From NCBI GenBank assembly GCA_903925955.1, contig CAIYHO010000135.1:1-43758 (forward strand): DNA of 43,758 bases, written 5' to 3'. Positions within the stretch are counted from its first letter, which is position 1; each line of letters starts with the position of its first letter. The notes under the pieces were generated by a model. It worked only from the letters and a program-made list of their open reading frames with translations. It was not told the DNA's origin and searched no databases. A program made the position numbers and the translations under genes. This DNA is from an uncultured Chloroflexota bacterium (GTDB lineage: Bacteria; Chloroflexota; Limnocylindria; Limnocylindrales; CSP1-4). This document shows positions 25,822 through 39,060 of this stretch, piece after piece.

Positions 25822-26859
25822 CTAGTCCCCGGTCTTCACCGCGTCGCGGTGCCCGGGGATCTGGTCCGCCACACGGCGCCGCTGCCAAGGAGCGGGCTGC
25901 GCCTCATGCAGCCCCACGAAGCGCGCTGCCCAGATCCGCAGCCGTGCAACCGCGCGACGAGCCGTTGGGTCCGGCGCCGCCCGGAATGAGCGCGCCCATG
26001 AGGCCGCCCGCCCGCCGACGCGGCGCCCCGCCACACTCCACGCCCGCGGAGAGAGAAACGCAAACGGGTGCGCCAGTCGCCACCACCAGGGCATGGCGGC
26101 CCACGCAAAGATCAGGAAGTCTGCGCGCAGGGGTCGTGGCCCAAAGCCAAACAGGGCTTGGAGCTGCACGATGGTGAGCGGCAGCATCACCAGCGAGAGG
26201 AGTCCCGAGCACGCCAGCACGATCAGCCCCCAGCCGCGTGCCCGCGCCGGCAGCACAAGCCACAGCGGCGCTGGCACCCATTTCATCCACGTGGCGAGGC
26301 CCCAGATCAGCCCGCCAAGCCTGCCATGGCCAAACTGTGCGCCAAACAGCGCCACCGCAAGCAGCAGGTTGATGTTGCCCGTGTCGAGGTTTGTGCCAAT
26401 GGGGATTGCCAGCGCCAGCAGCACGAGCGCCGTGGGGAGTGGTCTGCGGGCGTACGCCCAGCGGATGGTCCAGAGCAGCAGCAGGATGGCCAGCCCGCGC
26501 CAGACGAACCACGCGGCATCCCATGGCAGCATGGCCCAGGGGATGAAGAACGGCAGCATCCACGGTGCGTACACATAGGGCAGAAACGGCCCCGTGGGGT
26601 GGTATGGGTCACCGCCGTCAAGCCAGATGCGGACTGCGGCCCAATACGCGCGGGCATCGGCGCCGGCAGTGTCGGCCCGGGCGGCCATCGCGGCCAGCAG
26701 CACGGCGAAGATGACAATGAGGAGGGCCATCGCCGCGATCCTGTGCGGTTCGCTCAGCCGGACAGCTTCCCGCCGCAGTGCGCGCCGGACGACGCCCTCG
26801 TGATGAGGGTGTCCTGCCGGGTTGGGGCGGGGGAGCGCGTTGGCCGCGGGGATCGTCAT
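25822..26859 (-). CDS. GT87/DUF2029-like membrane glycosyltransferase
   Basis: A 345-residue polytopic membrane protein. After a 35-residue basic start come about eight hydrophobic helices (first IAAMALLIVIFAVLLAAMAA). The first outer loop has the signature GADARAYWAAVRIWLDGGDP then YHP, with an aspartate placed as in polyprenol-phosphate-sugar dependent GT-C enzymes. WKWVPAPLWLVLPARARG and FIFAWAAMP-like segments fit DUF2029/GT87 alpha-mannosyltransferases. The basic C-terminal 80 residues are soluble. It would add a mannose-type sugar to a lipid or polymer on the outer face. Family assignment is by eye and moderate. Divergent from cyanophycinase. Confidence 0.68.
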   Translation of the reverse strand: MTIPAANALPRPNPAGHPHHEGVVRRALRREAVRLSEPHRIAAMALLIVIFAVLLAAMAARADTAGADARAYWAAVRIWLDGGDPYHPTGPFLPYVYAPWMLPFFIPWAMLPWDAAWFVWRGLAILLLLWTIRWAYARRPLPTALVLLALAIPIGTNLDTGNINLLLAVALFGAQFGHGRLGGLIWGLATWMKWVPAPLWLVLPARARGWGLIVLACSGLLSLVMLPLTIVQLQALFGFGPRPLRADFLIFAWAAMPWWWRLAHPFAFLSPRAWSVAGRRVGGRAASWARSFRAAPDPTARRAVARLRIWAARFVGLHEAQPAPWQRRRVADQIPGHRDAVKTGD

Positions 26860-26917
26860 CGGATCGCCATTGTCGCGCGTCGGCGGGCGTATCGTCGGGA
26901 TTGCGGTCAGACGCCCG

Positions 26918-26923
26918 TATACT
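26918..26923 (+). promoter_or_regulatory. -10-like box TATACT before cphB
   Basis: TATACT lies 9 nt before the GTG start at 26933, the same arrangement as at lhr. Confidence 0.55.
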
Positions 26924-26932
26924 CCCCGGGCT

Positions 26933-27769
26933 GTGGCACAGGGAACCGTGATGGTGATCGGGGGCGCTGAGGACAAGGTCCGTGACCGGGTCATCCTCGG
27001 CAGGTTTGTCGCGCTCGCCGGCGGTGAGACGGCCAAGATCGCCGTGATCAGCACCGCGTCCTCGTTTGGCGTTGAGGCCGGCGAGCGGTATCGCGAGATC
27101 TTCACGGGTCTGGGCGCGGCCGACGTCACCCCGGTCCACGCGGTGACACGCCAAGAGGCCAACGACGAGCACGTGGCCCAGGGCGTTGCCGATGCCACCG
27201 GCGTCTTCATGACCGGTGGCAACCAGCTTCGGCTCTCGTCCATGATTGGCGGCACCAAGCTCGCCGCAGCCATCGTGGAGCGGTTTGAGCATGGCGCGGT
27301 TGTCGGGGGCACCTCGGCCGGCGCAAGTGCGGTCAGCAGCCACATGATTGCGTTTGGCGCATCGGGCGCCACGCCCAAGCACCGCATGGCGCAGATTGCC
27401 GCGGGTCTGGGGCTGCTGCCCGGGGTCATCGTGGACCAGCACTTCCAGCAGCGGAACAGGCTTGGGCGGCTGCTCAGCCTCATCGCGCAGAACCCGATGC
27501 TGCTGGGCCTTGGCGTGGACGAGGACACGGCGGGCGTCGTGGGTCCGGACGGCGTCATGGAGGTCATCGGCCGGGGCTCGGTGACGGTGGTGGACGGTGC
27601 GGCGTCCGAGACCGATGCCTGGGAGATCCGCGGTCACCGGCCCCTGATGATCAGCAACGTGGTGCTCCACTCGCTGCCCGCGGGCTACCGCTTTGACCTT
27701 CGTCGGCGCACGCGCGTTGACGCGCCCAAGCTTGTCGTGGTCGAGGGCGAGGCGCTCGCGTCGTCCTGA
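26933..27769 (+). CDS. cphB: cyanophycinase (peptidase S51 family)
   Basis: A 278-residue intracellular hydrolase that cuts the storage polymer cyanophycin (poly-aspartate with arginine side chains) to beta-Asp-Arg dipeptides. Seen: GTVMVIGGAEDK at the N-terminus, FMTGGNQLRL, the nucleophile elbow GGTSAGASAV with Ser128, and the family-specific DQHFQQRNRLGRL and GLGVDEDTA. There is no signal peptide, unlike secreted cyanophycinases, so it mobilises internal reserves. GTG 26933 is chosen because TATACT precedes it by 9 nt and conserved sequence starts at once; an upstream frame from 26822 is Arg/Gly-rich. The end of the gene forms one copy of an 18-bp direct repeat. cphA follows on the same strand. 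Confidence 0.93.
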   Translation: MAQGTVMVIGGAEDKVRDRVILGRFVALAGGETAKIAVISTASSFGVEAGERYREIFTGLGAADVTPVHAVTRQEANDEHVAQGVADATGVFMTGGNQLRLSSMIGGTKLAAAIVERFEHGAVVGGTSAGASAVSSHMIAFGASGATPKHRMAQIAAGLGLLPGVIVDQHFQQRNRLGRLLSLIAQNPMLLGLGVDEDTAGVVGPDGVMEVIGRGSVTVVDGAASETDAWEIRGHRPLMISNVVLHSLPAGYRFDLRRRTRVDAPKLVVVEGEALASS

Positions 27770-28059: not shown

Positions 28060-30915
28060 GTGGCCCAAGTGGATCCGACACCAAGGAAGCGGACCAAGCA
28101 GACCCCGGACGAGCCCGCGGCGGCGGCTGCCGGCGTGCCCGCCGCGGCGCCCGACGCCACGCCCGGCGGCCCCCAGCCCACGCTCCGCATCCTTGACACG
28201 AAGATCATGCGCGGCCCCAACTACTGGTCGCCCAAGCCCGTCATCCGGATGGTGGTGGACCTGGGTTCGCTGGAGGAGTTCCCAAGCTCCACGATCCCGG
28301 GGTTTGTGGACACGCTTGTGGGGCTGCTGCCCAGCCTTGATGACCACGCCTGCTCGCTGGGCCGCCGCGGCGGGTTCATCTCCAGGATGCGCGATGGCAC
28401 GTGGGCAGGGCACGTCGCCGAGCACGTTGCCTTGGAGCTGCAGAACCTGGCCGGGACAGATGTCCGCCACGGCAAGACCCGCGGCACCGGCGAGTACGGC
28501 CGCTACAACGTGATCTACGAGTACCGCGCCGAGCAGGTGGGCATCGACGCCGGCAAGCTTGCCGTCAGGCTTGTCAACCACCTGGTGGCGCCGGGCGATC
28601 CCGAGCACGCGTTTGACTTCCAGGACGAGGTGGACACGCTCATCCGCAGCGCGGAGCGGCTGGCCTTTGGCCCGTCAACGCAGGCGCTTCTCGATGAGGC
28701 GGCCAGCCGCGACATCCCCTACATCCGCCTTGACCGCTTCAGCCTGGTCCAGCTTGGCCAGGGCGTGCACCAGCAGCGCATTCGCGCCACGATGACCAGC
28801 CGGACCGGCGGGATCGCCGTGGACATCGCGTCTGACAAGAAGCTCACGAACAGACTGCTCGATTCGGCCGGCATGCCCGTCCCGCGCTCCGAAGTGGTGC
28901 AGAGCGAGGATGAGGCAGTCGCGGCCGCCCGACGCCTTGGCTACCCCTGTGTGGTCAAGCCGCTGGATGGCAACCACGGCCGTGGCGTGGCGCTGGACCT
29001 GCGAGACGAGGCCGCAGTCCGCGGCGCCTTCCCCGAGGCCCTCCGCCAGAGCCGCAGCCGCGACGTCATCGTTGAGACCTACATCACCGGGCGCGATTAC
29101 CGCTGCCTCGTGATCGGCGGCAAGCTGGCCGCCATCGCCGAGCGTGTCCCCGCAAGCGTCACCGGGGACGGCGTGCACACGATCCGTCAACTCGTGGAGA
29201 CCGTGAACGCGGATCCCCGCCGCGGCATCGGCCACGAGAAGGTCCTCACGCGCATCAAGCTTGACGCCAACGCCGAGGAGGTCCTGGCGGGCCAGGGCTA
29301 CACCTACGACGACATCCCCGAGGGCGGCGCCTTCGTCAAGCTTGCCCTCACCGGCAACATGTCAACCGGCGGCACGTCCATCGACCGGACGCATGAGGCC
29401 CATCCCGACAACATCGAGATTGCGGAGACAGCGGCCCTGGTGGTGGGTCTTGACATCGCGGGCATCGACTTTGTGTGCCCGGACATCACGGAGCCTGTGC
29501 GCGAGACCGGTGGCGGCATCGTGGAGATCAACGCGGCCCCGGGCTTCCGGATGCACACGCACCCCACCGAGGGCGAGCCGCAATACGTGGCGAAGCCCGT
29601 CATCGATCTGCTCTTCCCTCCGGGCGCCAACGCGCGCATCCCCATCCTTGCGGTGACGGGCACCAACGGCAAGACAACCACCGTCCGCATGCTGTCCCAC
29701 ATCCTCAAGATGATGGGCAAGCGGGTGGGCATGACGTCCACCGACGGCATCGTCATCGATGGACGCCTGATGAAGCGCGGCGACATGTCCGGGCCAAAGT
29801 CCGCCCAGATGGTGTTGCAGAACCCCACCGTGGACACAGCGGTCTTTGAGGTGGCCCGCGGCGGCATCCTGCGCGAAGGCCTGGGCTACGACCGCAACGA
29901 CGTGGCCGTGGTCACCAACGTCACCGGAGACCATCTGGGCCTCGGCGGGATCGACACGCTGGGCCAGCTGGCAAACGTCAAGGGCGTCCTGGTGGGCGCG
30001 GTGCCGCGATCCGGGTCAGCCGTCCTCAACGCGGATGACTCCCACGTCTACCGGATGGGCCGCCATTGCGCGGGCCGCGTGATCCTCTTCTCGATGTCGA
30101 AGAACAAGGGCGAGGACGGCTTCGATCGCGTGGACGGCCACACGTCGCGCGGCAATGCCGCGTTTGTCCTGCAGGACACGCCGCAGGGCGAACTGATGGT
30201 GCTCCGCCACGGGCCGCGCGTGATGCCGGTCCTGTACACGCACCTCATGCCGGCCACGTTTGGCGGCAAGGCGCGGATGAACGTGGCCAACTCGCTTGCC
30301 GCGGCCGCTGCAGCGTGGGCGTCTGGCGCCCACCTCCACGACATTCGCCAAGGGCTGCGGACGTTCACCACGTCGTTCTTCCAGGCTCCCGGCCGGCTCA
30401 ACATGGTGGAAGTTGGCGGGATGCGCGTCATCATCGACTACTGCCACAACGTGGACGGCATGCGCCAGCTGGCTGACTTTGTCAACCGGATGGTGACCGA
30501 TGCCCACGGGCGATCCGGGCGGGCCATCGGGATTATCGGGACGCCGGGAGACCGTCGCGACAAGGACCAGTACGACTATGGGTACCTTGCCGCCTCTGCG
30601 TTTGACGAGATCATCATCCGCGAGGACAGGGGCCTCCGCGGACGCACGCAGGGTGAGACAGCCGGGCACGTGGCGGAAGGGGTGCGGGCCGCCCGCGCCT
30701 CCACCGAGGGTGCGCAAACCACGCACGTGGAGACAATCCTCGAGGAGAGCGCCGCGGTCCACGTCGCGTTCCGACGGGCTGTTCCGGGCGACCTGATCGT
30801 GGTGTGCGCGGACGACTCCGTGGGGGTCTATCGCGCCGCGATGGAGTTTGGCGCAAAGGCACAGGGCGGTTCAGCGCTTGCGGATCCGGGCGAGCTGGGG
30901 TCGTTCCTGGAGTAG
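28060..30915 (+). CDS. cphA: cyanophycin synthetase
   Basis: A 951-residue enzyme that polymerises aspartate and arginine into cyanophycin using ATP. Domains: a 45-residue Ala/Pro extension; N domain (about 45-215) with ILDTKIMRGPNYWSPKPVIR and RDGTWAGHVAEHVALELQNL; ATP-grasp domain (about 260-520) with YPCVVKPLDGNHGRGVAL, ETYITGRDYRCLVI and GGIVEINAAPGFRMH; and Mur-ligase domain (about 525-930) with P-loop VTGTNGKTTTVRM (about 533-540), EVARGGILREGLGYD and IIDYCHNVDGM. Length and order match CphA1; the N-terminal extension is the only oddity. The ATP-grasp domain adds Asp and the Mur domain adds Arg in characterised enzymes. The GTG start is supported by AGGAGGG. It faces the ATP-grasp-less paralogue across 56 nt. 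Confidence 0.96.
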   Translation: MAQVDPTPRKRTKQTPDEPAAAAAGVPAAAPDATPGGPQPTLRILDTKIMRGPNYWSPKPVIRMVVDLGSLEEFPSSTIPGFVDTLVGLLPSLDDHACSLGRRGGFISRMRDGTWAGHVAEHVALELQNLAGTDVRHGKTRGTGEYGRYNVIYEYRAEQVGIDAGKLAVRLVNHLVAPGDPEHAFDFQDEVDTLIRSAERLAFGPSTQALLDEAASRDIPYIRLDRFSLVQLGQGVHQQRIRATMTSRTGGIAVDIASDKKLTNRLLDSAGMPVPRSEVVQSEDEAVAAARRLGYPCVVKPLDGNHGRGVALDLRDEAAVRGAFPEALRQSRSRDVIVETYITGRDYRCLVIGGKLAAIAERVPASVTGDGVHTIRQLVETVNADPRRGIGHEKVLTRIKLDANAEEVLAGQGYTYDDIPEGGAFVKLALTGNMSTGGTSIDRTHEAHPDNIEIAETAALVVGLDIAGIDFVCPDITEPVRETGGGIVEINAAPGFRMHTHPTEGEPQYVAKPVIDLLFPPGANARIPILAVTGTNGKTTTVRMLSHILKMMGKRVGMTSTDGIVIDGRLMKRGDMSGPKSAQMVLQNPTVDTAVFEVARGGILREGLGYDRNDVAVVTNVTGDHLGLGGIDTLGQLANVKGVLVGAVPRSGSAVLNADDSHVYRMGRHCAGRVILFSMSKNKGEDGFDRVDGHTSRGNAAFVLQDTPQGELMVLRHGPRVMPVLYTHLMPATFGGKARMNVANSLAAAAAAWASGAHLHDIRQGLRTFTTSFFQAPGRLNMVEVGGMRVIIDYCHNVDGMRQLADFVNRMVTDAHGRSGRAIGIIGTPGDRRDKDQYDYGYLAASAFDEIIIREDRGLRGRTQGETAGHVAEGVRAARASTEGAQTTHVETILEESAAVHVAFRRAVPGDLIVVCADDSVGVYRAAMEFGAKAQGGSALADPGELGSFLE

Positions 30916-30971: not shown

Positions 30972-32678
30972 TCAAGCGTGGTTGCCGTTGCGTGCCTTCG
31001 CGCCCAGTTGCGCCAGCAGCGCGAAGACCTCGTCCCGCTGCTCGTGGCAGAACAGAACGATGACCTGGGGCGCGTCCGCGCCCGACAGCTCGGACTCCAG
31101 CGCGGCAACCTCCGTCTCGTAGACCGGCACGTCGGCAAGGTTTGCGCCACCCTCGGCAAGCCCTTCGCGCAGCAGCCGCACCACATCGGCAGCCGGTCGG
31201 CCGCGAAGGTAGGCGCGCGTCTCCTTGACCGCTACCCGCTGGGCACGCCCCGCAGTGATGCGGCCGATACCGCGCAGCGTGTCGTCCGGGCGATCACCCG
31301 CGGTCCCGATGATCGCCGTGACCGGGGCCGTGACCGGGGCCGTGACCGACGTGGCGCCCGCGCCCGCCGCCACGGCTGCGGCAACGGCGAGGATTGCTTC
31401 AGCACCTGCCTCGTTGTGCGCAAAGTCCACGATCACGATGCGCTGGCCCAGCGTGAAGAGGTTCATCCGGCCTGGTGAAAGCTCTGCCGAGGGTCGGAAG
31501 TCGCGCAGCCCGTCGGCAACCTCCTCAAGCGTGGCACCCATCGCCCGCGCCCCGGCCGCTGCCGCCAGCGCGTTGGCCACGTTGTAGGGGGCCAACCCCC
31601 CAAGGGCCACGGGCAGGTCTGCAACGGCCAAGAAGGGCACGGCCGCACCGTCCTCGCGGGCCACCAGATATCCGTCCTCAAGCGTGTACGCGCGGGCGCC
31701 CTTGACCCGGTGGCGGGCAAGCACCGCTGAGCCCGGAAGGTCTATCGAGAACCACGCCACTTTTGCCCGGACCCGCCGGGCCAGCGCCGCCACGTACGGG
31801 TCGTCGGCGTTGAGGACGACCCAGCCGTCCGCGCGCGTGATGCGGCACACCGTGGACTTGACTTCTGCAAGCTCCGCCAGCGTGTGGACGCCACCCAAGT
31901 CCAGGTGGTCAGACGACACATTGGTGAAGACCGACGCCTGGTTTGACTCGTAGCCAATGCCGCGCTGGACCAGCCCGCCGCGCGCCGTCTCCAGGACCGC
32001 CACGTCCACGTCTGAACGGCCGAGAACCGCCGCCGCACCGCCCGGCCCCGTCCAGTCGCCAGCCTCTACCAGTTGCTCATCCACAAGGATCCCGTCGGAT
32101 GTGGTGGTCCCGACGCGGCGGCCGGAGCGCAGCAGGATGTGCGTGATCAGCCGGGTGACGGTTGACTTGCCATTGGTGCCGGTGATGGACACCACGGGGA
32201 TGTGGCGCGCTTCATCGCGGATCCACCCGGGGGGCGTTGCTCGCGCGGCCGTGATCCGCTCCGTCCAACGACCGAGCACCCGTGTCTGCATACCTGTGAG
32301 CCGCACGTGGCGACCCGGCGACACCGAGCGCAGCGCAAGGTCCACCGCCGCCTCGGCGATCAGCCGTGCGCGCTCCGCCCCGCTCCACGGCCACGTGATG
32401 ACCCAGCGGCCAGCGTCGGACGCTCGATGCACCGCCACGGGCCCAGCGTGCTCTGCATGGTCTATGCGCAGCCGCCGCGTCCAGGCGACAAGGTCCGTGA
32501 CCGGGTCCGGCCACTCGTCCGCGGCAACCGGTCGCGCAAGGTGGACCAGGCTGCCGTCCTGTTCGGTTCGCGAGCCGCGCCAGACCCGCGTCCGGCCCAC
32601 GGCAACCTCAACCTTGACCACCGGCAGCAGCCGGTAGACGGAAGGCCCCTCAAACAACCGAATCTCAACGAGTCGCAC
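30972..32678 (-). CDS. CphA-like Mur ligase lacking the ATP-grasp domain
   Basis: A 568-residue relative of cyanophycin synthetase with unusual architecture. Residues 1-150 resemble the CphA N domain (VEIRLFEGPSVYRLLPVVKV against LDTKIMRGPNYWSPKPVIRM; later HRASDAGRWVITWPWSGAER). The Mur-ligase domain follows directly: P-loop SITGTNGKSTVTRL (167-172), TTTSDGILVDEQLVEAGDWT, ETARGGLVQRGIGYESNQAS, NVSSDHLDLGGVHTL, APYNVANALAAAAGA and VDFAHNEAGA. The 300-residue ATP-grasp domain is absent without frameshift. Mur ligases use ATP to join an amino acid to a carboxylate, so it may modify cyanophycin or a related polymer; the substrate is unknown. A 12-bp repeat near the C-terminus encodes TAPV. The GTG start has TATCCT 9 nt upstream. 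Confidence 0.85.
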   Translation of the reverse strand: MRLVEIRLFEGPSVYRLLPVVKVEVAVGRTRVWRGSRTEQDGSLVHLARPVAADEWPDPVTDLVAWTRRLRIDHAEHAGPVAVHRASDAGRWVITWPWSGAERARLIAEAAVDLALRSVSPGRHVRLTGMQTRVLGRWTERITAARATPPGWIRDEARHIPVVSITGTNGKSTVTRLITHILLRSGRRVGTTTSDGILVDEQLVEAGDWTGPGGAAAVLGRSDVDVAVLETARGGLVQRGIGYESNQASVFTNVSSDHLDLGGVHTLAELAEVKSTVCRITRADGWVVLNADDPYVAALARRVRAKVAWFSIDLPGSAVLARHRVKGARAYTLEDGYLVAREDGAAVPFLAVADLPVALGGLAPYNVANALAAAAGARAMGATLEEVADGLRDFRPSAELSPGRMNLFTLGQRIVIVDFAHNEAGAEAILAVAAAVAAGAGATSVTAPVTAPVTAIIGTAGDRPDDTLRGIGRITAGRAQRVAVKETRAYLRGRPAADVVRLLREGLAEGGANLADVPVYETEVAALESELSGADAPQVIVLFCHEQRDEVFALLAQLGAKARNGNHA

Positions 32679-32765: not shown

Positions 32766-34043
32766 ATGGACCTTCCCCTCGATCTCGTTGCCCACGACGA
32801 GCTGGCCGCCCTGCGCGAGGCGGTTGAGCGCACCCATAACGCGTACATCGCCGACCTTGAGCGCCTGGTCAACACGGACTGCGGCAGCTACACCAAGGAT
32901 GGCGTGGACGCGGTTGGCCGCTTTACCGCCGCCCGGCTTCGGACGCTCGGCGCGCACGTTGTGAGCCACCCAAATGATCAGGACCTGGGTGAGACGGTGG
33001 TGGCGGAGTTTGCCGGGGCTGACCCCGCCGGGCCCACGCTGCTCTGTATCGGCCACATGGACACCGTGTTTGATCCGGGCACCGCGGCGGAGCGCCCGTT
33101 TGAGATCTCCGGCGGCATCGCCACTGGGCCAGGCGTCACCGACATGAAGAGCGGGCTGTTGGCCGGGCTCTACGCGATTGGCGCCATCCGCGATGCCCTC
33201 GGCGGTCTGCCGCTGGCGCGCTTGGTGTTTGTGGCAAACCCGGACGAGGAGATCGGCTCGATGGTCTCGTCGCCCCACATCCGGCGGATTGCCGCTGAGG
33301 CGGACCTCTGCTTTGTGCTGGAGTGCGCCCGCGCCAACGGCGACATTGTCTCGCGCCGCAAGGGCACGCTGGACGCGGTGATCACCGTGTTTGGCAAGGC
33401 GTCGCACGCAGGGGTTGAGCCCGAGAAGGGCCGCAGCGCCATCCTTGAGGCTGCCCGGCTGGTCACAGACCTGCATGCGCTCAATGGCCGCTGGCCGGGC
33501 GTGACGGTGAACGTGGGCGTGCTGGAGGGTGGAACGCGGCCCAACGTGGTTGCCGAGCGCTGCTCAATGCAGGTGGACGTCCGCGCCGTGACCCGCGAGG
33601 GCCTGATTGCCGTTGAGGCGGCCATCCGCGAGCTGATCGCCGCTCCGCGCGCCGTACCGGACGTGACCTTTGAGCTGGTGGAGGCTGGCCGCCATTGGCC
33701 GATGGAGAAGCTGGAGCGATCCGGCCGCCTCGTGGACCATGCCGTGTCCCTGGCTGATGCCATGGGCTTTGAGCTGCGCGATGCCGCCACGGGCGGGGCG
33801 TCCGACGCCAACACGACTGCCGGCATGGGCGTGCCGACGATTGACGGGCTTGGGCCTATTGGCGGGCTTGACCACTCCCCGGGCGAGTACCTGGAGGTCT
33901 CGTCCATCGTGCCGCGAACGACGCTGCTGGCGGCGCTGATCACGGCTGCCGGGCGCGATCCCGTGGTCCGCGGCTGGGCGGCAGAGCGGCGGGCGAAGGC
34001 GGCGGCGTCCGCGGCCCCGGCTTCGGCGGCGTCTCCGAAGTGA
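32766..34043 (+). CDS. M20-family zinc peptidase (carboxypeptidase G2-like)
   Basis: A 425-residue cytoplasmic metallopeptidase without signal peptide. Two-zinc ligands are visible: CIGHMDTVF (His, Asp), GPGVTDMKSG (bridging Asp), NPDEEIGS (Glu-Glu, catalytic and ligand), LECARANGD (Glu) and GGLDHSPGEY (His). The dimerisation lid starts near GTLDAVITVFGKASHAGVEP. The family removes C-terminal Glu or acyl groups, or hydrolyses dipeptides. Its place beside the cyanophycin genes makes a dipeptide-hydrolase role possible (for example on beta-Asp-Arg), but this is inference. The tail is Ala/Ser-rich. Its stop overlaps the RidA GTG by 4 nt. Confidence 0.9.
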   Translation: MDLPLDLVAHDELAALREAVERTHNAYIADLERLVNTDCGSYTKDGVDAVGRFTAARLRTLGAHVVSHPNDQDLGETVVAEFAGADPAGPTLLCIGHMDTVFDPGTAAERPFEISGGIATGPGVTDMKSGLLAGLYAIGAIRDALGGLPLARLVFVANPDEEIGSMVSSPHIRRIAAEADLCFVLECARANGDIVSRRKGTLDAVITVFGKASHAGVEPEKGRSAILEAARLVTDLHALNGRWPGVTVNVGVLEGGTRPNVVAERCSMQVDVRAVTREGLIAVEAAIRELIAAPRAVPDVTFELVEAGRHWPMEKLERSGRLVDHAVSLADAMGFELRDAATGGASDANTTAGMGVPTIDGLGPIGGLDHSPGEYLEVSSIVPRTTLLAALITAAGRDPVVRGWAAERRAKAAASAAPASAASPK

Positions 34044-34426
34044 CGCATCGGCGGATCTCCAGCGGCGGACCCTGGGAGGCGGTTGCGGGCTATTCGCGGG
34101 CGGTCGTCGCTGGCGACACCTGCGAGGTGGCGGGCACCACCGATGCGGGCCCCGACGGCGAGTCGCGCCATCCCGGTGACGCTGGCGCCCAGACCCGGGC
34201 CGCGTTTGAGGTTGTGGAGCGGGCGCTGCGCGAAGCCGGCTTCTCGCTCCGTGACATCGTCCGGACACGGATGTACCTGGTGGACGCGGCCGATATCGAC
34301 GCCGTCCTCGCCGTCCACGGGGAGCTGTTCCGCGACATCCGCCCCGCGGCAACGCTCCTCCTTGTGGCTGGGCTGATCCGCCCAAGCCTGCGCATCGAGG
34401 TGGAGGCCACGGCCCGGCGGGGCTGA
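34040..34426 (+). CDS. ridA: RidA/YjgF-family protein
   Basis: A 128-residue protein, typical size. RidA proteins hydrolyse reactive enamine/imine intermediates made by PLP enzymes, releasing ammonia and ketoacid. Seen: GPWEAVAGYSRAVVAGDTCEVAGTTD, the QTRAAFEVVERALREAG helix, RTRMYLVD with the substrate-binding Arg, and LRIEVEATA at the end with the conserved glutamate. It starts with GTG overlapping the M20 stop, so the two are translationally coupled and probably act together on nitrogenous compounds. It is convergent with azlD. Confidence 0.9.
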   Translation: MTHRRISSGGPWEAVAGYSRAVVAGDTCEVAGTTDAGPDGESRHPGDAGAQTRAAFEVVERALREAGFSLRDIVRTRMYLVDAADIDAVLAVHGELFRDIRPAATLLLVAGLIRPSLRIEVEATARRG

Positions 34427-34469
34427 TCCCAGCCGCGGTGACACACCTGCGCGCAAGCCAATGGAACGA

Positions 34470-34802
34470 TCAGGCCGCGCCCAGCGCCCTCGCCACCGCG
34501 ACCAGCGCCATCCCGCCGATCAGGCCCAGCAGCAGGTTCCGCCGCCACGCCGTGAGCACCACGCAGAGCAGCACGCCTGCTGCAGTCACGTCGAGGTGGA
34601 GGGCGCGGACGCCGTCGGTGGAGGTGACCACAAACGTGTTCGCCGCCGCCAGCGACGCCAGCACCGCCGGGCCCACCAGACGCAGGTACTGCAGCGCGCG
34701 CGGCGGCAGCTTCTCAATGCCCGGAGCCAGCATCGGCAGCGCTCGGGACGGATACGTGGCAAGCCCCATCAGGATTGCCAGCAGGACAAGCTGGGTGCTC
34801 AC
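34470..34802 (-). CDS. azlD: AzlD-family branched-chain amino acid exporter subunit
   Basis: A 110-residue membrane protein with four hydrophobic segments. TYPSRALPMLAPG, PPRALQYLRLVGPAVLASLA and the hydrophobic C-terminus are the AzlD pattern. Together with AzlC it forms a small two-subunit exporter of branched-chain or related amino acids. The start GTG (34802) overlaps the azlC stop (GTGA), typical of coupled azlCD. Confidence 0.9.
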   Translation of the reverse strand: MSTQLVLLAILMGLATYPSRALPMLAPGIEKLPPRALQYLRLVGPAVLASLAAANTFVVTSTDGVRALHLDVTAAGVLLCVVLTAWRRNLLLGLIGGMALVAVARALGAA

Positions 34803-35602
34803 GGAGCAACCTCCGGCATCGTCGCCAGGTCAGCAATCGCCTCATCGAGATCCACCGGCCGTCCAGCCAGTTCGGACTCGGGCGACCCCGCACGCGGCCC
34901 GCCAGCCCCGGCGACATCGGGCCCCGGCATCGCCATGCCCGCCAGGGGCCCCAGCAGCCCGCCGATCATGATGCCCACGCCCGGCCCAAGGGCCAGGGAC
35001 GCGCCCACGCCCACCAGCGCACCCGTGCAGGCCGCAACAATCTCGCGCCGGCCCAGCATCAGCCCCACGGCAAGACCGCCCATGGCGGCCGGGAACACGA
35101 TGTCCAGCCCGAACTTGGACGGGTCCGGGATGGCGCCGCCCAACAGCACGCCCGCAAGCGTGGAGAGGTTCCAGGGGATGAACACGCCGCCGAGTGCCGC
35201 GATCCAGTACCCGCCCTCATCGGCATGGCCAATCCGGTGGAAGTGGGCGGCTGTGAGCGCAAAGGCCTCATCGGTGAGGAAGTGGGCCATGAGCGCCCGA
35301 CGCGGCGCCGAGAACTCGCGCAGCCGGGGCGCAAGCGCGGCGCTGTACAAGATGTGGCGCGCGTTGAGGAACAGCGTGAGGACGACGATGGGTGCCCACG
35401 GGAGCCCGGCCGCCACATAGCCCACGCCCGCAAACTGGGCAGCCCCCGCGAAGAGGAACGTGCTCATCGCCATCGCCTCAAGGGGCGAATAGCCGGCGTT
35501 GCGCGCGGCCAGCCCAAACATGAAGCCAAACGCGATGATGGACGCGTTGATGATCAGCGTGTCGCGGATCAGGCGACGGCGCGACTCGCGCTGCGTGATC
35601 AC
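34799..35602 (-). CDS. azlC: AzlC-family amino acid exporter subunit
   Basis: A 267-residue permease. Family marks: FGFMFGLAARNAGYSPLEAM, the STFLFAGAAQFAGVGYV helix, FLNARHILYSAALAPRLREF, and FLTDEAFALT. Usual AzlC is near 230-240 residues; the last 44 residues (from MPGPDVAGAG to TMPEVAP) form an extra hydrophilic tail. GTG 35602 is chosen as start; TTG 35605 is equally possible. It is downstream of the zinc-ribbon gene by 16 nt and upstream of azlD with overlap, so all three probably form one transcript. Substrate unproven. Confidence 0.9.
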   Translation of the reverse strand: MITQRESRRRLIRDTLIINASIIAFGFMFGLAARNAGYSPLEAMAMSTFLFAGAAQFAGVGYVAAGLPWAPIVVLTLFLNARHILYSAALAPRLREFSAPRRALMAHFLTDEAFALTAAHFHRIGHADEGGYWIAALGGVFIPWNLSTLAGVLLGGAIPDPSKFGLDIVFPAAMGGLAVGLMLGRREIVAACTGALVGVGASLALGPGVGIMIGGLLGPLAGMAMPGPDVAGAGGPRAGSPESELAGRPVDLDEAIADLATMPEVAP

Positions 35603-35618
35603 CAAGGGTGGCGCGCGG

Positions 35619-35891
35619 TTAGCGCAGGAACGTCTTGGCGCAGGTCCCATCGCAGACGACGTACACGGCGTGCTTCTCGGCCGCATAACCCGCGGCGTGC
35701 AGCAGACCGGCGCAGCCCTTTGTGGGGCACTTGTAGACCCACCAGCGGTCCTGCGCGTCTAGCGGCGTGGTATCGGCCGCCAGCGTTGCGGCGAGGTCCG
35801 CCCGCGCCGCCAGCAGCGACGTGATCGTCTCGGCGCGCTGCGCCTCAGGCTCGCTTGTGTAGGGGTAGCTCTGGCCGACGTTTGAGGTCAA
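35619..35891 (-). CDS. small cysteine-rich protein, putative zinc ribbon
   Basis: A 90-residue protein of unknown function. The C-terminal part has Cys pairs YKCPTKGCAG and VVCDGTCAKTF spaced by 24 residues, a probable zinc ribbon. The N-terminal half is helical (QRAETITSLLAARADLAATL). No ATG or GTG fits; TTG 35891 is supported by GGAGG 5 nt upstream (35897-35901), a better ribosome-binding site than most in the window. It precedes azlCD in the same direction. It may be a nucleic-acid or protein-binding regulator. Confidence 0.6.
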   Translation of the reverse strand: MTSNVGQSYPYTSEPEAQRAETITSLLAARADLAATLAADTTPLDAQDRWWVYKCPTKGCAGLLHAAGYAAEKHAVYVVCDGTCAKTFLR

Positions 35892-36023
35892 CGATGCCTC
35901 CGAAATCTCATGCGAAGCCGGCGGCAGATCGGTGTGAGCGCGGCTGCCACCGGCGGGGCCGAGGATACCACTCGGCCACCGGCGATCGGGCCTGTGGCGA
36001 ACCGCAGCACACCCCGGCACGCC

Positions 36024-37682
36024 CTAGCGGACCGCCGCGAGCCCCGCGCTGCGCGGGTCAGCGATGGCCGCAAGCGTCCCGCCAACCGCCGGTCCGCCGT
36101 CCACCAGCTCAATGGCGTGCTCATGGCCAAGACCGCCGTCAAACCCTATTCGGTTGATCCCGTGCCCGAGCGCCCGCAGGCCCGCTTCGACACCGTCGGC
36201 CAGTTCGCCATCGACCAGCACCCGCGTGGGCGGCGCCAGCCACCCGTCCGGCTCCACGGTGATGCGTGGCGCAGCAACGGCTGTGGCGATGTCGGCGCCC
36301 CCGTCCACCAAGGCGGACACCAGTTGCACGTGGATCTGGGGCTGGATGTCCCCGCCCATGGACCCAGCCACAATCCACGGCCGGACCCCGCCCTCGCGGA
36401 ACAGCATCCCTGGCAGCAGCGTGTGGGCCGTGCGCCGTCCGGGTTCCAGCACGTTGGGGTGTGCTGCTTCCAGCGAGAACGAGGCGCCGCGGTCTTGGTA
36501 GTGGATCCCGGTCACGGGGTCCACAACGCCCGAGCCAAAGCCCGCAGCGTTGGACTGGATCAGGCTCACCGCGTTGCCCTGCGCGTCTACCACCGCCAGG
36601 TAGATCGTCCCGCCCACAAGCGTCCGCACCGGGGTGGGGGAGGGATCAGCTCGCCCCGGATCAAGGCGCCCTGCCAGCTCCCGTGCGTGCTCGGCCGAGA
36701 GCAGCCAGTCCACCGCGATGTCCCGGAACGCAGGATCCGCGAGGTGGGCATCGCGGTCCGCATAGACAAGCTTGGCGGCTTCGAGCCACAGGTGGGGCCA
36801 CGCGGGATTGCTCCAGCCGCGCCCGTCAAATGACGCTCCCGGCGGCGGCTCCATCTGTGCAAGCACGTTGAGGATCTCCAGCGCCAGCACGCCGCTGCTG
36901 TTGGGCGGATGCGTGGTGACGCGGACGCCGCGATACGTGGTGGCGAGTGGCGTGGTCCAGTCGCTGTGGTGGGCGTGCAGATCCGCCGCGGTGTGCGTGC
37001 CGCCGGCCTTGGCCAACCCCGCCGCGATCCTGTCGGCCAGATCGCCGTCGTAGTACTCGTCAAAGCCCCGGTCCGCAAGCGTGCGCAGCGTGCCGGCCAG
37101 CGCGGGCAGGCGAATGACCTCGCCGGGGCGCCAGGGTTGGCCGTTTGGGCGCCAGACTTGCCGGAACCCGGCGGTCCAGGGCTCTGTGCCGATGGACGCG
37201 TTGGTCCCCTCGACAGCCTCTACCAGCCCGTCCCACGCCGGGAACCCTGCGTCCGCGTGTTCAATTGCCGCGGCCAGGACGGCCGAGCGCGACAGGCGGC
37301 CCCAGCGGCGATGGGCGTCCGACCATGATCGGACCGCGCCCGGAATGGTGATGGGCAGTGGCCCGCGCAGCGGCATGCGGGTGAGACCAGCTGCCCGGAG
37401 CGCCGATGCGGAGATCCCCGCGGGCGCACGTCCGGAGCCGTTGAGCGCCACTTGCTCGCCAGCCGCCTCGTCCCAGACCAGCCAGAACGCGTCGCCGCCG
37501 ATGCCGCACCCGTTGGGCATGACCACGCCCAGGACGGCGTTTGTGGCGATAGCGGCATCAACGGCGTGACCACCTGCCGCGAGCACGGCGAGGCCCGCGG
37601 CACTTGCCAGATGGTGAGGCGCGACAACTGCACCGCGCGCGCCACGGATGGCCCTGGCCGGGACGAGTGCTGGGTTGCGCAT
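36024..37682 (-). CDS. gamma-glutamyltransferase family protein
   Basis: A 552-residue Ntn hydrolase with the gamma-glutamyltranspeptidase fold. VVAPHHLASAAGLAVLAAGG, VDAAIATNAVLGVVMPNGCG, GIGGDAFWLVWD and PITIPGAVRSW belong to the large subunit. The processing site is Thr359 in LVGGTIYLAVVDAQGN, where autocleavage would free the catalytic threonine; NAAGFGSGVV follows. No signal peptide is seen, unlike classical exported GGT, so it may be one of the cytoplasmic homologues acting on gamma-glutamyl or other amides. It is 22 nt downstream of the MFS gene on the same strand. Confidence 0.9.
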   Translation of the reverse strand: MRNPALVPARAIRGARGAVVAPHHLASAAGLAVLAAGGHAVDAAIATNAVLGVVMPNGCGIGGDAFWLVWDEAAGEQVALNGSGRAPAGISASALRAAGLTRMPLRGPLPITIPGAVRSWSDAHRRWGRLSRSAVLAAAIEHADAGFPAWDGLVEAVEGTNASIGTEPWTAGFRQVWRPNGQPWRPGEVIRLPALAGTLRTLADRGFDEYYDGDLADRIAAGLAKAGGTHTAADLHAHHSDWTTPLATTYRGVRVTTHPPNSSGVLALEILNVLAQMEPPPGASFDGRGWSNPAWPHLWLEAAKLVYADRDAHLADPAFRDIAVDWLLSAEHARELAGRLDPGRADPSPTPVRTLVGGTIYLAVVDAQGNAVSLIQSNAAGFGSGVVDPVTGIHYQDRGASFSLEAAHPNVLEPGRRTAHTLLPGMLFREGGVRPWIVAGSMGGDIQPQIHVQLVSALVDGGADIATAVAAPRITVEPDGWLAPPTRVLVDGELADGVEAGLRALGHGINRIGFDGGLGHEHAIELVDGGPAVGGTLAAIADPRSAGLAAVR

Positions 37683-37704
37683 GGGATTGCCGGGTCTCCT
37701 GGAC

Positions 37705-39060
37705 CTAGTGGGTCTTGGGAGCGGTGCCGTCCACCAGCACGGGCGCTCCCACGTGGTGCTCGTACCGGCGCAGCCGCCGAATGGGGAGGACGGCCACGCC
37801 AAGCAGCACCACCGAGGCGCCAAAGATGCCGTCAAGTCCGTAGCCCTGCGCAGCCAGACCGCCAAGCGTGCTGCCGATGATCTGGCCCAACCCGAGGAAC
37901 ACCGAGTACAGGCCCATGATGGCGCCGCGATCGTCCGGGTACGCCTCCGTCATGTCGGCGAGCAGGCCAATGGCTGCGGGCGTTGCCCCCGCCAGCACAA
38001 ACAGCCCTACGCCTGCCACCCCAATCAGTGCCAGCGTCACCGGCAGCGGGGCACCGGCAGCGTGATTGATCAGCGCGCCCGCCACCAGCAGCACAGCCCC
38101 GCCGACGATGCCGCGCAGGATGATCGTTGTGCGCGCCATGTACTTGAACCGGCCGCCCCAGTAGAAGAGCCCGGCGAAGAAGAGCAGTCCTGCGAGGCCA
38201 AGCCCAACGCTGATCTGGACTGGCGAGAACCCGCCCATCAGCTGCTGGCTGGCAAACGCAGGATCCGGCGCCCGGACCAGCTGAAAGAGCGTCTGGCTGG
38301 TGTACAGACCCAGCGTTGCGTTGATGGCGATCCAGGTGGGCGCCAGGACCCAGACGTGGCTGCCGCGCAGGATCCGTGTGTAGCGCGCCAGACCCTCCGT
38401 CTTGTCGTGGTTGGCCGACGCCGACGCGGGCTCTGCATCCTTGCGGACGCCAAAGCGGTACAGCGCAAACGACACCCCGTACAGCACCGCGTTGATCAGG
38501 AACGCCCACGCGTGCAGCAGCGGAAAGAGGAACCCGGCCAGCACCATGCCCACCATGAGGCCCGCCAGCGTTGCCGCCTCAAACCGCGCCACAGCCTTGC
38601 CGCGGGCAAGCTCGTTGCTGGCGGTGGCAAAGGCGATGAAGCCTAGGATCGAGGGCACGGACGCGGCCGTTGAGGCACCCTCCAGCAGGCGGGTGGCCCC
38701 GATGACGATCAGGCTGGTGGTGAAGGCCGTGATGATGACGGCGATGGCGCCAAACGCCGGACCCACCAGCATCATCCGCCTATGGCCGATGCGGTCCGAC
38801 AAGATGCCGAAGATGGGCGAGCCAACCAGCTCTGACAGGTAGAACAGCGCGCCGAGGATCCCCACTTCCCACGGCTGCACTGCGGCGGCGCCGAATGAGG
38901 GGAACGACGCGTAGTAGAAGAGCAGCATGGTGCCCGTGACGCCGGTGGCGAGGCGCAGGGTGAACGTCCCAAGCGTCACCGCTAGGACCGGCGAGCCGCC
39001 GGATGGCAGGCTGCGCAGCTCGTCGATCAGGCGGAGGGGGGTGGCGGGCAGAGTTGTCAT
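37705..39060 (-). CDS. major facilitator superfamily transporter
   Basis: A 451-residue membrane protein with about 12 helices. The loop 2-3 motif reads GSPIFGILSDRIGHRRMMLVG, a clear MFS motif A with the D-R-x-G-x-R-R core. A central Lys/Asp/Glu-rich loop (FGVRKDAEPASASANHDKTEG) divides two six-helix halves. The C-terminal half has ATPAAIGLLADMTEAYPDDRGAI. Substrate cannot be told; the pairing with the GGT-like enzyme hints at import of peptides or amides. ATG 39060 is preceded by a TACGCT box 8 nt upstream. Divergent from degV. Confidence 0.88.
   Translation of the reverse strand: MTTLPATPLRLIDELRSLPSGGSPVLAVTLGTFTLRLATGVTGTMLLFYYASFPSFGAAAVQPWEVGILGALFYLSELVGSPIFGILSDRIGHRRMMLVGPAFGAIAVIITAFTTSLIVIGATRLLEGASTAASVPSILGFIAFATASNELARGKAVARFEAATLAGLMVGMVLAGFLFPLLHAWAFLINAVLYGVSFALYRFGVRKDAEPASASANHDKTEGLARYTRILRGSHVWVLAPTWIAINATLGLYTSQTLFQLVRAPDPAFASQQLMGGFSPVQISVGLGLAGLLFFAGLFYWGGRFKYMARTTIILRGIVGGAVLLVAGALINHAAGAPLPVTLALIGVAGVGLFVLAGATPAAIGLLADMTEAYPDDRGAIMGLYSVFLGLGQIIGSTLGGLAAQGYGLDGIFGASVVLLGVAVLPIRRLRRYEHHVGAPVLVDGTAPKTH

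Follow-up and report, generated by a model that had tools for sequence, protein, structure and literature searches.

A predicted CphA-related Mur ligase without an ATP-grasp domain is encoded alongside cyanophycin synthetase in several bacterial phyla

The polymer cyanophycin is widespread as a nitrogen store and is of interest as a candidate bioplastic; its known synthesis depends on CphA1 and, in cyanobacteria, additionally on CphA2. In the Mur ligase MurE, the incoming amino acid is read by a DN[PS]R motif. CphA1 (TIGR02068; PDB 7LG5, 7LGQ, 7WAE) combines an N domain, an ATP-grasp (G) domain and a Mur ligase (M) domain. The N domain of CphA1 binds the polymer, a polymer analogue being located between N and Mcore in SuCphA1 (PMC9427784, PMC9262961), and in 83% of CphA1 it carries Cx19HxxEH, an endo-cyanophycinase zinc site that makes primers (PMC9262961). 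In the M domain, roles have been assigned to K499, E558, R731 and H748 (PMC9427784) and to D585/H586 (PMC9262961); mutation of K499 impairs the activity of TeCphA1 (PMC9427784), and the D585A/H586A exchange inactivates the M domain of SuCphA1 (PMC9262961). CphA2 (PDB 8FXH, 8FXI), a CphA1 relative of reduced length, has a single ligase site; it works through its ATP-grasp site, and its Mur site is degraded. The N domain of CphA2 is devoid of the zinc motif (PMC9262961).

The window, i.e. the whole stretch of 43,758 nucleotides of Chloroflexota DNA analysed here, contains cphB for cyanophycinase (26822-27769, + strand; TIGR02069, 259 bits against a cut-off of 126.6), which precedes a cphA gene for a full cyanophycin synthetase 1 (28060-30915, + strand). 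The product of the latter matches positions 1-855 of the TIGR02068 profile with 1135 bits, is matched by PF18921 and by the ATP-grasp and Mur models of Pfam, and has the Cx19HxxEH site. Convergent to cphA, with 56 bp between them, lies the gene under study (30972-32678, - strand), an uninterrupted frame of 568 residues with a GTG start codon at 32678; the start position is conserved among its relatives, as GTG or ATG. The initial annotation had described this frame as facing a true cphA, and as joining a CphA-like N domain to a Mur ligase with the ATP-grasp domain missing; its place, strand and orientation are as described, and Pfam and NCBIfam agree that ATP-grasp is missing from this protein and that the neighbouring CphA is complete. 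The protein is hereafter referred to as N-M.

TIGR02068 aligns with residues 156-555 of N-M over profile positions 475-858 only, and the resulting 376 bits are far below the cut-off of 850 bits, so the protein does not score as a member of the cyanophycin synthetase family. Neither PF18921 nor an ATP-grasp domain was matched by Pfam, the latter not by NCBIfam either, and the N domain joins the Mur domain directly. PF08245 (Mur_ligase_M) scores 76.1 bits against a gathering score of 24, which places the protein in the Mur ligase superfamily, while the match to Mur_ligase_C remains below threshold. An AlphaFold2 model of the whole protein has a pLDDT of 92.8 and a pTM of 0.92, and CphA1 chains are its best matches in a PDB fold search. 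N-M shares with CphA1 the type of N and M domains, the catalytic residues of M and the gene neighbourhood, but differs from it in having no G domain and no Cx19HxxEH, in a remodelled recognition loop and in forming a separate clade. As the ATP-grasp domain that defines CphA1 was tested for and is absent, N-M is not a CphA1. Like CphA2 it is a shortened CphA1 relative with one ligase site; however, it retains an intact Mur site in place of the ATP-grasp site, making it the mirror image of CphA2, as had been proposed. On the evidence of its sequence, N-M is a CphA-related ligase with a domain loss opposite to that of CphA2.

Comparison of the gene with five relatives gave dN/dS values of 0.12-0.28, and N-M is therefore a working gene under purifying selection. 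A frame error, a damaged cphA and a chance neighbour were each considered and rejected. It is scarcely conceivable that N-M represents a decaying copy of cphA from which the ATP-grasp part was recently deleted, as the purifying selection, the invariant catalytic residues and a clade apart from all the CphAs compared speak against decay, even though a possible case of such a deletion was encountered in Legionella adelaidensis. There, the 'Mur ligase family protein' WP_058462805 resembles N-M in that N is joined to M without ATP-grasp, but its N domain matches PF18921 (155 bits), it has the CphA-type SA motif and its similarity to CphA reaches 688 bits; judged from these matches, it seems to have lost G independently and to stand outside the N-M family. 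Genes for cyanophycinase and isoaspartyl peptidase follow its gene (L178:7635-9503, plasmid NZ_LR134428.1).

The N domain of N-M (residues 1-150; 32229-32678, - strand) was assigned by profile-profile alignment, fold comparison and motif scanning. Alignment of 107 N-M with 85 CphA N domains by hhalign gave a probability of 96.5% (P 8e-10) over 119 collinear columns, and the control alignments of N-M N domains with the CphA ATP-grasp and Mur profiles stayed below 1% probability. Residues 1-150 alone were modelled by AlphaFold2 with a pLDDT of 91, and when this model was compared with 350,542 PDB chains using Foldseek, the 13 best matches were all CphA1 or CphA2 (E-values 8e-4 to 0.14, probabilities 0.84 to 1.00), with no Mur ligase among the 50 matches listed. 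These models and profiles indicate that the likeness to CphA is specific but remote. The resemblance claimed for the N-terminus is thus borne out, and over the N-terminal 150 residues it is CphA that is matched, not MurC, MurD, MurE, MurF or MurT.

The HxxEH part of the zinc motif occurs in 85/85 partner CphAs, of which 81 have the full Cx19HxxEH, and in 0/107 N-M proteins. The N domain of N-M is, by this motif comparison, not equivalent to the full CphA1 N domain, the primer-making site being missing from all 107 sequences. The N-domain motif conserved best in the family is ExRxxxGPxxYxxxP, which in the window extends as EIRxxxGPxxYxxxPxxK over residues 5-22 (32613-32666, - strand) and aligns to the hydrophobic loop around Y14/I17 of SuCphA1, a loop that contacts the M domain (PMC9262961). 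By analogy with SuCphA1, this conserved motif may be the reason why N and M stay one unit without G. Since the polymer analogue of SuCphA1 lies between N and Mcore, and since the conserved motif falls on the M-touching loop, N-M without G would make a coherent unit.

The Mur part agrees with what had been claimed, a complete ligase starting at about residue 160. The core (residues 160-402; 31473-32201, - strand), delimited by profiles and alignment, contains the P-loop, the Mg ligands, the DH pair and a lysine at the carbamyl-lysine position, and the lid or C-terminal domain (residues 403-568; 30975-31472, - strand) is supported by a profile match and the AlphaFold2 model. The P-loop reads TGTNGKST (residues 166-173; 32160-32183, - strand), its K171 being invariant in 107/107 sequences. 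Counterparts of the eight catalytic positions K499, E558, R561, D585, H586, K602, R731 and H748 of CphA1 are likewise invariant in all 107 N-M proteins, and the Mg-ligand positions T500 and T522 (CphA1 numbering) are occupied by Ser or Thr. An active ATP-dependent ligase, its activity predicted from the intact Mur site, is the best reading of these residues. A role without catalysis, as a partner or regulator of CphA and for instance as a subunit of a hetero-oligomer, would agree with the strict pairing with cphA and with the N and M folds common to both proteins, but it is very unlikely given that the four core features listed above, from the P-loop to the lysine at the carbamyl-lysine position, have been kept in 107 sequences.

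MurE (TIGR01085; PDB 1E8C) shares the Mur middle and C-terminal domains and the general chemistry with N-M. Nevertheless, N-M has another N domain, scores 105 bits against the MurE cut-off of 257, and has the DN[PS]R loop replaced. The MurC, MurD, MurE and MurF profiles all remained below their cut-offs on N-M, no Mur N-terminal UDP-MurNAc binding domain was found, and the MurT profiles gave at most 37 bits against 800. No cell-wall genes were recognised adjoining N-M, the adjacent genes identified being cphA, cphB, an M20 peptidase and RidA, and the MurE of the window genome is encoded elsewhere, separate from the N-M gene. Membership of the Mur superfamily would allow a cell-wall or poly-gamma-glutamate type ligase located beside cphA by chance; the probability of this is slight, because the best sequence and fold matches are to CphA, far ahead of MurE, the N domain has the CphA fold with no Mur N domain among its listed matches, and the genome has a MurE of its own.

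The recognition loop KETRAYLRGR (residues 485-494; 31197-31226, - strand), identified by alignment with CphA and MurE, is remodelled. The loop of CphA reads [RK]EDxx-xRGR and that of MurE has DN[PS]R at the same position; in the N-M of the window one residue (Tyr) is inserted, and the RGR motif of the CphA loop is retained. D801, kept in 76/80 CphAs, is replaced by T, K, L or N in N-M. Two further positions (CphA1 numbering) differ, the Ser at 542 of CphA being Gly in 107/107 N-M proteins and the Glu at 607 being Arg in 97/107. As the altered loop occupies the position of the motif that reads the amino acid in MurE, we infer that the amine substrate has changed, and by this analogy N-M would probably use an amine other than the Arg of CphA. 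No published structure with Arg bound in CphA was found that displays the Arg pocket, and the loop argument accordingly leans on MurE. N-M might also be a second Arg-adding site which fills the side chains left bare by CphA, yielding the same polymer, as its CphA-type Mur core and lid, the identical catalytic residues and the retained RGR would permit. This is rather improbable, since the loop and the substrate-side positions 542 and 607 are consistently unlike those of CphA, the M site of CphA in the same genomes is intact, and a separate clade retained across phyla suggests a distinct job.

A tree of the Mur domains separates 38 N-M sequences from 33 CphA M domains by one branch with support of 100/100. 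The tree is unrooted, as the only usable MurE, whose branch was very long, and two long CphA-like sequences were omitted, and both an origin of N-M from CphA by loss of G and the reverse would fit it. Distances among N-M proteins follow those among their partner CphAs (25 pairs, Mantel r 0.88, 0/5000 permutations), a tracking that shared species history alone could yield.

The initial annotation had also raised the question of whether N-M occurs mainly in genomes without cphA, and the opposite was observed. Among 126 genomes of the order of the window, both genes are present in 50, cphA alone in 2 (incomplete), N-M alone in 1 and neither in 73, the lone N-M genome being a draft with the gene at a contig edge. 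Among 369 Gammaproteobacteria, both genes occur in 8 genomes, always adjacent, cphA alone in 9 and N-M alone in none. In a sample of the phylum Chloroflexota, N-M was also found in the families numbered here f3, f19, f25, f46 and f76, and families f16, f47 and f53 have cphA only. A scan of genome contigs yielded at least 80 named N-M loci, which span Limnocylindria including CSP1-4 (of the family of the window), Thermomicrobia, other Chloroflexota, several MAGs labelled Actinobacteria, and Paraglaciecola mesophila. In every one of the 15 genomes checked from the named loci there was a second, cphA-sized match, most of these genomes being without cphA on the stretch examined. The alpha- and gammaproteobacteria with N-M include Ruegeria, Shinella and Paraglaciecola. 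A search with the single protein revealed no relatives in viral contigs.

Three gene orders were observed, namely convergent cphA/N-M in most Chloroflexota, N-M-cphB-cphA in f46 and relatives, and cphB-cphA-N-M in Proteobacteria, the last also on plasmids of Ruegeria, Shinella zoogloeoides and Roseateles sp. XES5, where the N-M copies are annotated 'Mur ligase family protein'. That the linkage persists while the gene order varies is strong evidence that N-M shares a job with cphA and cphB. In f25 and some Thermomicrobia-like genomes, N-M and cphA are unlinked. In three genomes of f25, N-M lies directly behind proC for pyrroline-5-carboxylate reductase (255 bits; L078:6334-9061, also L075 and L079), and from this arrangement N-M could have another role there.

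Taken as a whole, N-M is about as probable as not to be an ATP-dependent amide ligase of the cyanophycin pathway, which would act in trans on the polymer or its pieces and with an amine that is probably not Arg. Cyanophycin or its pieces are taken to be the substrate, since in CphA1 it is the N domain that binds the polymer, with the analogue located between N and Mcore. The CphA-type N domain would dock on the Mur core and hold cyanophycin or short pieces as in CphA1, and the Mur site would phosphorylate a carboxylate of the bound chain, which, more speculatively, might be the beta-carboxylate of an Asp still unmodified or, on an Arg side chain, the alpha-carboxylate that remains free. The activated carboxylate would then be joined to the amine substrate, probably other than the Arg of CphA, whose identity is a matter of speculation. 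Working after or beside CphA, N-M may thereby decorate, tune or cap the polymer. CphA1 itself admits Lys, ornithine, citrulline and others (PMC8560796), which makes variant polymers chemically plausible, and decoration of side chains, or addition of an amino acid other than Arg, as initially suggested, is consistent with the remodelled loop. Counting against this explanation, N-M and cphA are unlinked in f25, and about half of the sampled cphA-bearing Gammaproteobacteria manage without N-M. The stronger proposal, that N-M constitutes a third family of cyanophycin-polymer ligases in several phyla, attaching an amino acid other than Arg or extending the Arg side chain via its free carboxylate, is put forward tentatively, at somewhat less than even probability.

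Attempts to name the added residue from gene neighbours were rejected, as the support for Lys (saccharopine-dehydrogenase genes in Ruegeria), for Glu (M20 and GGT neighbours) and for Pro (proC in f25) comes in each case from only one or two lineages.

The flanking genes bear on a further reading, in which N-M takes small pathway molecules rather than the polymer as its substrates, either adding an amino acid to the beta-Asp-X dipeptides released by CphB or synthesising starter peptides. M20 peptidases act on small peptides, and a gene for an M20 metallopeptidase resembling glutamate carboxypeptidase (32766-34043, + strand; PF01546, PF07687) starts 87 bp from the start of N-M and is divergent to it, a place that it keeps throughout f1 and f3, two families within the class of the window. 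In the window genome (92.5% complete), IaaA gave no match and IadA none above its cut-off, which makes the M20 enzyme a candidate for the last degradation step; as a beta-Asp dipeptidase for the final step of cyanophycin breakdown, it is, on its profile matches and position, a lead. This divergent neighbour and the missing IaaA and IadA matches, together with the near-constant presence of N-M with cphA and usually with cphB, and the N-M-cphB-cphA order of f46 and relatives, would suit an enzyme acting on small molecules. Such a role is nonetheless unlikely, although it deserves some weight, in view of the retained N domain, which is the polymer-binding part in CphA1; as to starter peptides, 81/85 partner CphAs own the primer-making zinc motif, so that a separate primer maker is unneeded.

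If N-M indeed attaches a residue other than Arg to the polymer, or extends its Arg side chains, the store of many bacteria now credited with plain cyanophycin would be a chemically different polymer. With a third, conserved ligase encoded next to cphA in Chloroflexota, Proteobacteria and MAGs labelled Actinobacteria, the polymer there may differ from the textbook one, and the enzyme could broaden what can be attached to a polyaspartate backbone. The family reaches cultured strains, e.g. Shinella zoogloeoides ATCC 19623 and Paraglaciecola mesophila KMM 241, in which the question is testable. It appears to have been overlooked, its N domain being invisible to Pfam and its NCBI label, as in the RefSeq name, only 'Mur ligase family protein'. 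No dedicated entry for N-M is contained in the copies of NCBIfam, Pfam and PDB that were searched, and no mention of the family was found among 5.4 million open-access papers, subscription papers and preprints being outside that scope; the words 'Mur ligase' are absent from the main text of a survey of cyanophycin genes (PMC10206079). The characterisation of N-M as an undescribed branch fits these sources.

Several smaller observations were made at these loci. Downstream of the M20 gene, the window carries genes for RidA, AzlC, a gamma-glutamyltranspeptidase, an MFS protein and DegV (34040-39060), an order kept beside N-M in many f1 genomes, the conserved neighbours having been counted with known proteins as queries because the high G+C content gives many false and antisense frames. 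Enzymes resembling GGT are able to cut isopeptide polymers. In Ruegeria sp. AD91A, cphB-cphA-N-M is preceded upstream by genes of the saccharopine-dehydrogenase-like and aldehyde dehydrogenase kinds (L175:966-3587), which were not seen in Shinella. A record labelled Candidatus Thermoplasmatota archaeon encodes a divergent CphA (CG 394 bits; L162:4844-7660) with no N-M adjoining. MAG contigs labelled Steroidobacteraceae (L129), Actinobacteria (L126) and Dermatophilaceae (L153) carry N-M genes of the Chloroflexota type, L126 and L153 having been placed with Chloroflexota N-M in a tree that included MurE and L129 having been assigned by its f3-like neighbours; errors of binning or naming may account for these labels. 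Finally, one genome has two cph cassettes (L064, G099:C21; L065, G099:C24), one of the f1 type and the other f3-like, which suggests horizontal transfer of a cassette or a mixed bin.
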